Shown piece after piece: positions 56,262-61,167 of a stretch of DNA of 64,000 bases. The DNA lies in the NCBI RefSeq assembly GCF_021502675.1, contig NZ_JAKFHA010000018.1, forward strand, positions 62,001 to 126,000, written 5' to 3'. The position numbers and the translations under genes were made by a program. A model generated the notes under the pieces. That model saw only the letters and a program-made list of their open reading frames with translations, was not told the DNA's origin and did not search any database. Every line of letters starts with the position of its first letter. Positions within the stretch are counted from its first letter, which is position 1. The DNA comes from Yinghuangia soli. GTDB taxonomy: Bacteria > Actinomycetota > Actinomycetes > Streptomycetales > Streptomycetaceae.

Positions 56262-58118
56262 TTACTGCGCCGCAGGGCCGGGGGCCGGGGGGATGAGTGC
56301 TGCCATCACGTCGGGTGGCAGTGACGGGTTCGCGGCTGCGGATTCCGCTGCCTCCCGGTCGGGGTCGGCGAGGAGTACGACGATGGTGTCCGGCGGCAGG
56401 GCCGGATGGCCGGCGGCGTGGCGCCGGGCTTTTGCGTCCCCGAGGTATACGAGCAGTGCCGTGCCGGTCGCCTGCGGGTGGCAGGCGATCGCCTTGAGTG
56501 CCTTGCGGGACGGCGGATTCTGCAGGGCCAAGGTCTCCAGAAGACCGGACGGGGTCTCCCGGTTCGCGGCGACCATGGCGGCGACCTGCGGGCCGTAGCG
56601 TTCGACCATGCTCCGCAGCCGGGACGGCGCCAGGCCGGGGTGCCCGGCGATCGACTTGAGGACTTTCGCGTCCCGGTCCTCCGCGAGCGCATCGCGGATC
56701 ACGTCCGGGAGGTCCCGGCGTTCGGCCAGGAGCATGCGGACCTCCGGGACCGGCGACCCGGCCAGCTCGGCGATCTCGTCCGGCGCGGCGGCGGCAATCC
56801 GCGGCAGCAGCGTAGGCCCGATCCGGCAGCACACGGCCAACTCCGCGAGCACGTCGAGCGGCACCCGCGGATTGTGCGCCAACCGGCGCTGCACATCGTG
56901 TCCCCGGTCGGCGGCCAGCATCCGCATCACGGCAGCGTCGATCCCCGGATTCTGAGCAAGAGCGCCGCGTACGCCCGGAACCGGGTCCTCGGCCAGCCGG
57001 ACCGCGGCCTCCTGCGGCAGGTCGGGGCGTTCCGCCAGCGCCTGCCGCAGCCACGCCGACGGGTGGTCCGCGTACCCGAGCAGTACGTCGGTCGGCGTCG
57101 CGGGATTCTCCATCGCCCGCGACACGGTGACGCGGACGGTGGACTCGTGCGATCCGTCGCACGCCGCTCCCGGCGGCAGCGTGCAGTCGGGCCGCGGGCA
57201 GTACGGATCGTGCACGAGCGGCGTGTCCTCAACGTCGCACACCAGGCACGCCTCCGCAGGCGGCAGCCCTTCGCCGGTGACCAGCACGGCCAGCACCTGC
57301 GGCGGCGTCGCCGGGTTGCACGCCAGCGCGGAGCGGACCTCGGCATGCAGGTGCTGCGCCAGGCGCACCGCCAGGTCCGCGTCCGCCCACAGGGCCAGTT
57401 CGGCGACGACCGCGACCACCGGGTCGGCGGCGAGCACGTCCTGCACATCGCCGGGAAGCCCCGGGCAGGCGGCCAATGTCTCCCGGCGCGCCGGGTCCGG
57501 GTGCCGGGCGAACCACCTTGCCCAGTCCGGGGCGCCGCAGCCCTCGTCCAGCATCGCGAGTGCCGTGTCCGGCCGCGTACAAGGATCCACGTCGGCGACG
57601 GACAGGTGTCGGGAGCGCGCGAGCTGCGCACCGATCTGGTCGGCGATCCGGGTTGCGATCGAGTCTGCGGTCGGGTCTGCAGTGGGGTCTGCGGTCTTGT
57701 CGGTGGTCTTGTCGGTGGTCTTGTCGGTGGTCTTGTCGGTGGTCTTGTCGGTGGTCTCGTCGGTGGTCGGGCCGGTGGTCGGGCCGACGAGTGCGTCGGC
57801 ACGACCCGGTGCTTCGGGATCGGCGGCGCCGATCGCTGCGGCGCGTGCCAGCAGCGCCAGGACCTGTTCGCGGTCGAGGTCCGCACGGGCGGCGAGCGTC
57901 AGCGCTGTATCGGCGTCCGCGACCGCGATCAGAGCCAGGAGCAGCCGGGGCGGCAGCGCCTCGTTGGCGGCCAGGCCGTGCAGGACGTCAGTCCTGGTGC
58001 GGTCGCTGCGCCCGTTGCCGTCTGCGCCGTCTGCATCCACAGGACGACATCCTGCCTGCGGGCCGGGCCCGGTGGCCTGCGCTTTTCGGCGTCCGGTTGT
58101 GCTGCGCCCGTTGCCCAT
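56262..58118 (-). CDS. Leucine-rich-repeat-variant-like protein with TTDK array
   Basis: 618 residues. Many ~24-residue helical repeats with the pattern NPxxPxxVLxxLA (for example RRLAHNPRVPLDVLAELAVC, ALAQNPGIDAAVMRMLAADRG, AAANPSLPPDVMAALIPP) resemble the LRV/HEAT superhelix. A cysteine cluster sits in the middle (CLVCDVEDTPLVHDPYCPRPDC), reminiscent of the Fe-S binding cluster of LRV proteins. N-terminal linker TTDKTTDKTTDK from 12-bp repeats. ATG 58118 has GAGGGGG upstream. Role unknown. Confidence 0.75.
   Translation of the reverse strand: MGNGRSTTGRRKAQATGPGPQAGCRPVDADGADGNGRSDRTRTDVLHGLAANEALPPRLLLALIAVADADTALTLAARADLDREQVLALLARAAAIGAADPEAPGRADALVGPTTGPTTDETTDKTTDKTTDKTTDKTTDKTADPTADPTADSIATRIADQIGAQLARSRHLSVADVDPCTRPDTALAMLDEGCGAPDWARWFARHPDPARRETLAACPGLPGDVQDVLAADPVVAVVAELALWADADLAVRLAQHLHAEVRSALACNPATPPQVLAVLVTGEGLPPAEACLVCDVEDTPLVHDPYCPRPDCTLPPGAACDGSHESTVRVTVSRAMENPATPTDVLLGYADHPSAWLRQALAERPDLPQEAAVRLAEDPVPGVRGALAQNPGIDAAVMRMLAADRGHDVQRRLAHNPRVPLDVLAELAVCCRIGPTLLPRIAAAAPDEIAELAGSPVPEVRMLLAERRDLPDVIRDALAEDRDAKVLKSIAGHPGLAPSRLRSMVERYGPQVAAMVAANRETPSGLLETLALQNPPSRKALKAIACHPQATGTALLVYLGDAKARRHAAGHPALPPDTIVVLLADPDREAAESAAANPSLPPDVMAALIPPAPGPAAQ
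57663..57779 (-). repeat. 12-bp tandem array encoding TTDK repeats
   Basis: On the plus strand CTTGTCGGTGGT occurs five times exactly (57696-57755), flanked by degenerate units (CTCGTCGGTGGT, CGGGCCGGTGGT; GTCTGCGGTCGG, GTCTGCAGTGGG). In the minus-strand protein this gives TTDK and PTAD repeats between the N-terminal domain and the superhelix. Exact repetition implies variable length. Confidence 0.92.
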
Positions 58119-58348
58119 GCCCGAGCCCCCTCGTGGCTTCGTGGCCGGGAATCGAGGCAAACACAGGCGCGGATCGGTCTGGCCGACGCCGGGCAGGGCC
58201 GGGTGTCGGCGGCCTGTCGGTGCGGGAGAAAAAAGAAATCGGGAAAAGATCGCCCCGGGGTGTCGATCCGGCCGGGTCCCGTTCGTCGTCATGGTGTGCG
58301 GCACCCGCCGCACGAGGAACAGGACAGCACGGCCGGGGCATCTCACCC

Positions 58349-58374
58349 GGTTCTCGACCGCCCGGTCGAGAACC
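58349..58374. promoter_or_regulatory. Perfect 26-bp dyad upstream of the DGPF/sigma operon
   Basis: GGTTCTCGACC (58349-58359), loop GCCC, GGTCGAGAACC (58364-58374), without mismatch, ~82 bases before GTG 58457. It is followed by the direct repeat GATCACT x2 (58384-58397). Could be a repressor site or an mRNA stem. A TGTCGA word (58261) 17 bases before CGTC upstream is a candidate ECF42-type promoter, recalled from literature and uncertain. Confidence 0.6.
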
Positions 58375-58456
58375 ACGATCGATCACTGATCACTGATCGC
58401 CTGAGACGCGCCGGCCCGCGGGTCGGCAGATCCGCGGAACCGACAGGAGCAGGACC

Positions 58457-58807
58457 GTGAAGTACATGCTGCTGATCAACGCCGGATCGGCGGACGCCGA
58501 CGGCGGCGCCGCCGAATGCACCGTCGAGGACTGGATGGCGTACGACAAGGAGGTCAAGGACGCGGGCATCTTCGTGTCCGGCGAGTCGCTCGCCGACCTG
58601 GTCACCGCCACGACCGTGCGCGTCGCCGCGGACGGCAAGCGGTCCGTGACCGACGGCCCGTTCGCCGAGACGCGCGAGGTCCTGGGCGGGTTCTACGTCA
58701 TCGACGTGCCCGACCTGGATGTCGCTCTGGACTGGGCCGCCCGCTGCCCCGGCGCCCTGGGCACCGGCAACATCGTGGTCCGCCCGATCGCCGACTTCGG
58801 GGACTGA
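58457..58807 (+). CDS. YCII/DGPF family protein
   Basis: 116 residues. KRSVTDGPFAETREVLGGFYVIDVPDLDVALDWAARCP is the DGPF signature of the YCII-like ferredoxin fold. DGPF proteins are the conserved genomic partner of ECF42 sigma factors. GTG 58457 has AGGAG upstream. The stop is one base from the ATG of the sigma gene, so they form an operon. Confidence 0.92.
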   Translation: MKYMLLINAGSADADGGAAECTVEDWMAYDKEVKDAGIFVSGESLADLVTATTVRVAADGKRSVTDGPFAETREVLGGFYVIDVPDLDVALDWAARCPGALGTGNIVVRPIADFGD

Positions 58808-58808
58808 C

Positions 58809-60644
58809 ATGTCGGACGGCACGACCGCAGGAGCCGGCGCGACGGGCCGTCCCGCGTACTCAACCCGTCACGATCCCGATCGGGGCCGCGACGACCGCCC
58901 GGGCGGACCGGACCGGTCTGCTCGTCCCGCCCGTACCGGCAGCCTCGACGGCCCGGACGGGCGGGATCCGGCCGGGCGCGCCGGGTCGGGAGCAGGGGCC
59001 GGGGGTGCCCCGGACCCTCGGCGGGGCCGGGCGGCCGACCGATCTGCCGGCCCGGGGCCTGGCGGGTCACCTGGCAGGCCGCCCGGCCGCCCCTCGCCGC
59101 CCCCGGGCACCGGGGACGCAGCTTCCTCGGGACCGGACACGCCCCATGACACCGGCGACCACCCGTACGACCACGACGACGTCCACGCGCACGATCCCGT
59201 GGACAGGCCTGACGCCGATCAGGACGGGCTTGGGGAGGGGTGCGAGGACGGTCGCGAACCGGCGGACGACGAGCTCGAGGCTCGTCCGACCGGCAAGCCC
59301 GGTCGCCCCGGCCACTACGGCCAATCCGGAGAGCCCGAACAGCCCGGAGAGCGCGCGGAGTCACGAGAGCCCGGGGAGTCAGCAGGGTCTGGAGCACCCG
59401 CCGAGCCCAGCCCGACCCGGCAGGCCGTCGAGTCGGTGTTCCGTGAGGAACGCGGCCGGCTCCTCGCCTCCCTCGTTCGCCGCTTCGGAGATTTGGACCT
59501 GGCCGAGGAAGCCGCGTCCGAGGCCGTCGAGGCCGCGCTGCGGACCTGGCCCGCCGACGGAGTCCCGTCGCGCCCCGGCGCCTGGCTGCTCACCACCGCC
59601 CGCCGCAAGGCGGTCGACCGGCTGCGCCGCGACCAGGCGTACGCCGCACGGCTGGCCGTCCTGCAGGTCGAGGCGGACCGCGCCGACCCGGCGCCGCCCG
59701 CCGGTACCGACGGCGGCCTCCCGGACGACCGCCTGCAGCTGTTCTTCACGTGCGCGCACCCGGCGCTCGCGGAGGAGGACCGCATCGCGCTGACGCTGCG
59801 CTGCCTGGCCGGCTTGACCACGCCGGAGGTGGCCCGGGCGTTCCTCGTGCCGACTGCCACGATGGCCCAGCGGATCGTGCGCGCGAAGAAGAAGATCCGC
59901 GAGGCCCGCATCCCGTTCCGCGTCCCCGGCGCGGACGAACTCCCCGACCGGCTCCCCGGCGTCCTCCAGGTCGTCTACGCGGTCTTCACCGAGGGGTACG
60001 CCGCCAGTTCGGGCCCCGAACTGCAGCGCCTCGACCTGGCCGAGGAAGCCCTGCGCCTGGCGCGCATCCTGCACCGGCTGCTGCCCGCCGAACGCGAAGT
60101 CTCCGGGCTCCTCGCGCTCATGCTCCTCACCCACGCCCGGCGCGACGCCCGCACCACCGAGGACGGCGCCCTGGCCATGCTCGACGAGCAGGACCGCACC
60201 CGCTGGGACCGCACGATGATCACCGAGGGGCAGCAGCTGACCGTCGCCGCGCTCACCGGCGGCCCGCCCGGCCCGTACGGCGTGCAGGCCGCGATCGCCG
60301 CGCTGCACGACGAGGCGGACGGCGTCGCCTCGACCGACTGGCCGCAGATCGTCGCCCTCTACGACGTGCTCACCGCCCTGACCCCGTCCCCGGTCGTCGC
60401 CCTCAACCGCGCCGCGGCCGTGGCCATGCGCGACGGACCCGGCGCCGGCCTCGCACTCCTCGACGAACTCGCCGGGGAACCGCAGTTGCGCGCCTACCAC
60501 CCGTACCAGGCGGCCCGCGCCGACCTGCTCAGCCGCCTCGGCCGCCGCGACGACGCCGCAGCCGCATACCGCGAGGCCCTCGCCCTGGCCGGCACGGAAC
60601 CCGAACGGGCCTACCTGCGCCGCCGCCTCGACGCCCTGCACTGA
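58809..60644 (+). CDS. ECF42-type RNA polymerase sigma factor with long N-terminal extension
   Basis: 611 residues. Residues ~205-400 are the sigma core: region 2 (AVESVFREERGRLLASLVRRFGDLDLAEEAASEAVEAAL; RPGAWLLTTARRKAVDRLRR) and region 4 (LTLRCLAGLTTPEVARAFLVPTATMAQRIVRAKKKIREA). The C-terminal ~210 residues are the TPR-like extension of this group (AHDEADGVASTDWPQIVALYDVLT ... LALLDELAGEPQLRAYHPYQAARADLLSRLGR). Typical relatives are ~410 residues; here ~200 extra N-terminal residues are Gly/Pro/Asp/Arg-rich and disordered. GGGGA precedes ATG 58809. Probably works with the DGPF partner; no anti-sigma gene is adjacent. Confidence 0.88.
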   Translation: MSDGTTAGAGATGRPAYSTRHDPDRGRDDRPGGPDRSARPARTGSLDGPDGRDPAGRAGSGAGAGGAPDPRRGRAADRSAGPGPGGSPGRPPGRPSPPPGTGDAASSGPDTPHDTGDHPYDHDDVHAHDPVDRPDADQDGLGEGCEDGREPADDELEARPTGKPGRPGHYGQSGEPEQPGERAESREPGESAGSGAPAEPSPTRQAVESVFREERGRLLASLVRRFGDLDLAEEAASEAVEAALRTWPADGVPSRPGAWLLTTARRKAVDRLRRDQAYAARLAVLQVEADRADPAPPAGTDGGLPDDRLQLFFTCAHPALAEEDRIALTLRCLAGLTTPEVARAFLVPTATMAQRIVRAKKKIREARIPFRVPGADELPDRLPGVLQVVYAVFTEGYAASSGPELQRLDLAEEALRLARILHRLLPAEREVSGLLALMLLTHARRDARTTEDGALAMLDEQDRTRWDRTMITEGQQLTVAALTGGPPGPYGVQAAIAALHDEADGVASTDWPQIVALYDVLTALTPSPVVALNRAAAVAMRDGPGAGLALLDELAGEPQLRAYHPYQAARADLLSRLGRRDDAAAAYREALALAGTEPERAYLRRRLDALH

Positions 60645-60668
60645 CGGCCCATCCGCACCACCGCAGGC

Positions 60669-60712
60669 CCCGACACCGCCCCGACACCGCCCCGACACCG
60701 CCCCGACACCAC
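60669..60712. repeat. Four 11-bp tandem repeats behind the sigma gene
   Basis: CCCGACACCGC at 60669, 60680 and 60691, and CCCGACACCAC at 60702, 24 bases after the sigma stop codon. Confidence 0.9.
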
Positions 60713-60837
60713 TGTGCCCCGACATCGCACGGACACCGAACCGGCGCCGGACGTATCGCGCCGGACGTACCGCGCCCCCCGCGGTACGCCGCACCCGTTC
60801 GTCCCGTCCGGCACATCACCCAGGAGGACCGATCCCC

Positions 60838-61167
60838 ATGCCCCACAACACCGCATCCGCAGCCGCTTCGGCTTCCGTTTCTGCGCCCGCACCGGGGCAG
60901 CCGATCGACACGACGTTCACCGGCGCGATCACCAAGGACGGCACCAGCGGCTGGGCGTGCGTGGTGATGCCCGGCTCCCGCGACTTCTTCGGCACCGGCA
61001 AGGCCGTCAAGATCGCCGGCACCGTCGACGGACACCCGTTCCAGGCGACGATGCTCCCGGTCGGCGGCGGAACGCACATGCTCCCGCTGAAGGCCGCCCT
61101 GCGAAAGACCCTCGGCAAGGAACCGGGAGACACCGTCACCATCCGCCTGGAACGCCGCTTCACCTGA
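60838..61167 (+). CDS. DUF1905 domain protein
   Basis: 109 residues. After an Ala/Ser-rich start, FTGAITKDGTSGWACVVMPGSRDFFGTGKAVKIAGTVDGHPFQATMLPVGGGTHMLPLKAALRKTLGKEPGDTVTIRLERR is a complete DUF1905 beta-barrel, a small domain often fused to YdeI-like proteins. Function unknown. CAGGAGGA lies ~10 bases before ATG 60838. The gap to the ankyrin gene (61168-61495) holds no supported gene. Confidence 0.88.
   Translation: MPHNTASAAASASVSAPAPGQPIDTTFTGAITKDGTSGWACVVMPGSRDFFGTGKAVKIAGTVDGHPFQATMLPVGGGTHMLPLKAALRKTLGKEPGDTVTIRLERRFT

Follow-up and report, generated by a model that had tools for sequence, protein, structure and literature searches.

How much of a sigma factor gene is translated when its open frame begins some 200 codons ahead of the conserved core? 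The question is raised by a locus of Yinghuangia soli (Actinomycetota, Streptomycetaceae), for which we analysed a stretch of 64,000 nucleotides (contig NZ_JAKFHA010000018.1 of assembly GCF_021502675.1, positions 62,001 to 126,000), referred to here as the window and numbered from its first letter. A first-pass annotation had proposed that an ECF42-type sigma factor with a long disordered N-terminal extension is encoded at this locus.

Locus and Domain Architecture

The ATG at 58809 opens a plus-strand sigma frame of 611 amino acids that is free of stops to 60644, and a single base separates it from the TGA of the DGPF gene, which ends at 58807; both were as the first-pass annotation had read them. 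The Shine-Dalgarno pairing at this ATG is -5.7 kcal/mol, inside the ortholog range (median -6.0 kcal/mol), and bears out the ribosome site that had been noted there. The DGPF gene (58457–58807, plus strand) is the first of the pair and encodes a DGPF/YCII-domain protein of 116 amino acids (Pfam YCII, E = 1.9e-19). The ECF42 architecture consists of a sigma2-sigma4 core, a C-terminal extension with DUF6596 and TPR, about 200 residues long, and an adjoining DGPF/YCII gene (PMC8999054). Besides the DGPF/YCII neighbour, the window gene contains, on the plus strand, sigma-70 region 2 at 59442–59636 (residues 212–276; PF04542, E = 1.4e-8) and sigma-70 region 4 at 59751–59897 (residues 315–363; PF08281, E = 2e-8), both above the Pfam cut-offs. 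The C-terminal extension, residues 381–611, begins with DUF6596 at 59949–60251 (residues 381–481; PF20239, E = 1e-35) and includes a weak, sub-threshold TPR_2 match at 60510–60590 (residues 568–594); the C-terminal half is all-helical in the predicted model. These features support the assignment to the ECF42 type, with a normal sigma2-sigma4-DUF6596/TPR protein standing behind the leader.

The leader consists of two dissimilar halves. Residues 1–100 (58809–59108) are Gly/Pro/Arg-rich and net neutral to basic, and residues 101–204 (59109–59420) are acidic, rich first in Asp and His and then in Glu and Pro. The acidic stretches quoted in the first-pass annotation are present, and only the second half is acidic. 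We ran AlphaFold2 on the window sigma with 50 orthologs. For residues 1–200, pLDDT stayed mostly under 50 and secondary structure was lacking, such low confidence being expected where the alignment is empty, and from residue 202 the model was a mostly confident helical protein (mean pLDDT 73.0, pTM 0.55) with its first sigma helix at residues 202–226. Together with the region 2 match from residue 212, this places the core at about residue 205, as had been annotated. A Pfam search of the leader alone and an Rfam search of 57800–60900 gave no match. We also considered a repeat or mobile element as the source of the extension and rejected it: elsewhere the genome gave only short low-complexity matches to it, no terminal inverted repeats were found for it, and its sole tandem repeat is a weak one of 18 bp.

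At 57693–57780 lies a 12-bp tandem repeat of 7.3 copies, which codes for TTDK repeats in a minus-strand leucine-rich-repeat-variant/DUF2336 protein (56262–58376). Directly 3' of the sigma stop, two short tandem arrays (11 bp × 4.0, perfect, and 14 bp × 2.4) occupy 60667–60776, and a DUF1905 gene is found beyond them at 60838.

Leaders of the Orthologous Sigma Factors

A clear group of orthologs was gathered from 395 genomes of the family, from contigs of named actinobacteria (such as Streptomyces, Nonomuraea, Planobispora, Amycolatopsis, and Kribbella), and from 394 genomes across the class. We compared 110 loci, the window's own and 109 orthologous ones, with some species present twice. The orthologs are about 70–84% identical to the window sigma in the core. 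In all 110 loci the DGPF gene is directly upstream of the sigma gene, and the orthologs have an in-frame start near the DGPF stop, usually at -8 to +11 nt. This alignment with ECF42 relatives, which had been proposed as a check, showed a leader in the same place in the 109 loci, but it is short and hypervariable there, with a length of 5–75 residues (median 16, 95th percentile 36) against 209 in the window, an outlier by 4.7 standard deviations when lengths are put on a log scale. Between the DGPF stop and the conserved VFREE motif lie 628 nt in the window, against a median of 53 nt for the loci compared and next-largest values of 230, 173, and 161 nt. No ortholog leader reaches half of the window leader's length, and 13 additional loci have leaders of 11–50 residues.

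In sequence, the ortholog leaders are low-complexity and rich in Gly, Ala, Pro, Glu, and Asp. Of 65 leaders that extend 14 residues or more ahead of VFREE, 53 carry a net negative charge and 3 a net positive one. Several relatives carry low-complexity leaders of 43–75 amino acids, and some of the leaders (L159, L156, and L083) are visibly built from repeats. A close ortholog is absent from the two other genomes of the genus (three genomes in all). The window leader very probably represents a disordered, hypervariable leader that has grown to an extreme in this lineage. Other DUF6596 sigma genes of the genus, L008 (G000:C23) and L024 (G001:C2), have low-complexity leaders too (GTGTGPGPG... and PEPGPGPEPGTGPGDD..., respectively), and repeat-prone leaders may, judging from these sequences, be common among ECF42 proteins.

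Probable Translation of the Leader and Choice of Start Codon

GC3 and open frames can mislead in DNA of 78% GC, and the GC3 bias that had been ascribed to the extension did not hold up. The GC contents at codon positions 1/2/3 are 0.84/0.72/0.775 in the extension, 0.81/0.52/0.94 in the core, and 0.70/0.47/0.97 in the DGPF gene; the GC3 of the extension equals the local GC content, and its codon-usage score gives no coding signal, being about zero or negative in every frame. In Markov shuffles of the region, a stop-free frame as long as the extension has a 28% chance, and one further forward frame and one reverse frame of the same stretch are likewise stop-free; hence, the open frame is weak evidence by itself.

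Base use by codon position gave a different kind of signal. Across the extension, phase-dependent base use has a z of 13.0, a value reached in 0 of 1000 shuffles, with G in position 1, C in position 3, and A in position 2, the last in the acidic half. The signal is unevenly spread, with z = 10.3 for residues 101–204 and only 2.9 for residues 1–100, and the codon phase is about zero in three non-coding stretches nearby. In the sigma frame, the extension encodes 38 Asp and Glu residues versus 17.2 ± 4.1 expected and a maximum of 34 in 3000 shuffles, together with 9 hydrophobic residues versus 19 expected; the acidic excess is confined to this frame, and the other frames of the extension are without it.

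For comparison, we sampled surely translated disordered segments from 1.26 Mb of the same genome, window included. Their GC3 is 0.83–0.91 in internal segments (n = 6) and 0.76–0.93 in C-terminal segments (n = 4), and the extension sits at or under the low edge of these. Among the orthologs, leader GC3 declines with length (0.91, 0.90, and 0.86, with single cases of 0.71 in L083 and 0.77 in L156); hence, a low GC3 is compatible with translation. The DGPF-to-core distances are distributed as 77/21/12 modulo 3 overall and as 28/4/2 for leaders of at least 20 amino acids, a non-uniformity that fits translated leaders, with shared descent inflating the signal. The extension of about 205 residues is probably translated from ATG 58809, consistent with the original reading of an ECF42-type sigma with a disordered N-terminal extension.

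As far as the first sigma helix, the frame has only three in-frame starts: ATG 58809, the GTG at 59199–59201 (residue 131), and the GTG at 59436–59438 (residue 210), all on the plus strand, with no ATG, GTG, or TTG between 59199 and 59436. The main alternative, an unlikely one, is that these 600 bases form an untranslated spacer inserted between DGPF and sigma, with a sigma of ordinary size starting from GTG 59436 or another late site. It would account for the missing GC3 bias, for the further frames left open by chance, for the weak phase of the first 300 bases, and for the SD-like pairing of -8.2 kcal/mol ahead of GTG 59436, where internal initiation is possible. However, this GTG follows the nearly invariant V207 and falls within the first predicted helix, so that a start there would yield a truncated sigma2 that lacks the conserved pair V207/E208 as well as eight helix residues. 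The spacer would also give up the start site common to the orthologs, and it leaves the codon phase of the stretch, seen in the sigma frame and in none of the nearby non-coding stretches, and the acidic excess of that frame alone to be accounted for. Conservation likewise does not place the start near 59410, the position that the first-pass annotation had set against its own reading: the window gene has no in-frame start between 59199 and 59436, GTG 59436 comes too late, and the orthologs start right behind the DGPF stop.

Promoter and Proposed Operon Control

The ECF42 promoter consensus consists of TGTCGA at -35 and CG(A/T)C at -10. A promoter of this type, TGTCGAT-N12-CGTTCGTC, is found on the plus strand at 58261–58287, upstream of the DGPF-sigma pair. 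The spaced motif TGTCGA-N15-19-CG[AT]C is present in 54 of the 110 orthologous upstream regions (window counted) versus 1.2 expected. In the genome of 9.7 Mb, TGTCGAT-N12-CGTTCGTC has exactly one match, and the control has 0. Since the motif is unique despite the eight DUF6596 sigma genes that the genome carries, its distribution suggests a single target, the DGPF-sigma operon itself, i.e., autoregulation. The eight DUF6596 sigma genes also stand against a single exact TGTCGAT-N11-13-CGTTCGTC site in the genome, which suggests, at the level of sequence, that every ECF42 paralog could have its own promoter variant.

The motif starts 196 nt before the DGPF start, compared with about 60–110 nt in the orthologs. 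The segment between the promoter and the DGPF start (58288–58456) folds much more stably than shuffled sequence (z = -4.3) and includes a perfect 11-bp hairpin at 58350–58373, of which, when tested as a repeated element, no other copy was found in the genome.

Comparison with Known Sigma Factors and Function of the Leader

In the case of known ECF42 sigma factors, such as Sven_0747, Sven_7131, and Sven_4377 of Streptomyces venezuelae and ECF-10 of Pseudomonas putida, the core, the C-terminal extension, and the adjoining DGPF/YCII gene are the same as in the window (PMC8999054), but the window sigma has an N-terminal disordered leader in addition. In the literature searched, descriptions of ECF42 mention only the C-terminal extension and no N-terminal leader. 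Extra sequence ahead of sigma2 is also present in Planctomycetes ECFs (formerly ECF87-89) and in some ECF36 members (PMC8103513, PMC8999054); however, the ECF36 extensions are membrane-spanning and contain DUF2275, whereas the window leader is soluble, low-complexity, and variable in length. According to a review, the N-terminal extensions found in ECF sigma factors have no known mechanism (PMC8103513). Actinobacterial primary sigma factors, such as SigA of M. tuberculosis, likewise have a long N-terminal stretch of disorder ahead of the core (PMC10011835), a likeness at the level of general description, but they are primary sigma factors, and the window leader is not conserved between orthologs.

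The pro-sigma factor BldN of Streptomyces is an ECF sigma factor whose N-terminal extension is a processed pro-sequence. The window sigma shares with it the ECF type and an N-terminal extension, but evidence of processing is absent for the window sigma.

The first-pass annotation had suggested that an acidic arm could mask the DNA- or polymerase-binding face. In a fuller form, the acidic half would be an auto-inhibitory arm that shields this surface of sigma2, akin to region 1.1 in primary sigma factors, until a signal or proteolysis relieves the inhibition; the strongly acidic second half and the mostly acidic ortholog leaders fit such an arm. However, neither its length nor its sequence is conserved in the orthologs, residues 1–100 are not acidic, residues 1–200 have no predicted structure, and the known control element of ECF42 proteins is the C-terminal TPR part (PMC8999054). 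Since the orthologs lack a conserved acidic arm and the window leader is not acidic in its first half, a specific masking function is unsupported, and we consider auto-inhibition unlikely. It is equally doubtful that the leader is a working disordered regulatory arm, in which the acidic half would shield sigma2 and act jointly with the TPR part at the C-terminus and with the co-translated DGPF protein, and tail length would tune sigma activity between species. Translation of the second half alone from GTG 59199, a possible but poor start, would leave a leader of about 76 residues, as long as the longest one among the orthologs (75 amino acids in one relative), and would suit a phase signal and acidic composition concentrated beyond residue 100. 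It is nevertheless very improbable: the SD pairing at this GTG reaches just -0.8 kcal/mol, and the start beside the DGPF stop would be lost.

We therefore favor, as the likely reading of this locus, a two-gene, self-regulated DGPF-ECF42 operon whose sigma factor carries a disordered leader of about 205 residues, extreme in this lineage. Translation of sigma would begin at ATG 58809, immediately behind the DGPF stop, and the leader would precede an ordinary sigma2-sigma4-DUF6596/TPR protein. The leader, usually acidic, would drift freely in length as low-complexity sequence is gained and lost in frame, and in this lineage it may have grown to its extreme through slippage or duplication. Such a leader would be a loosely constrained, solvent-exposed tail, at most with a weak electrostatic or solubility effect, or a role as a tether to the co-translated DGPF protein. 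Sigma activity would be controlled by the C-terminal TPR part, by analogy with known ECF42 proteins.

A hypervariable, mostly acidic disordered leader thus occurs generally across a widespread clade of actinobacterial ECF42 sigma factors, and the window presents one extreme case of it. The clade provides a natural length series, from 5 to about 209 residues, for asking whether such tails affect sigma activity.
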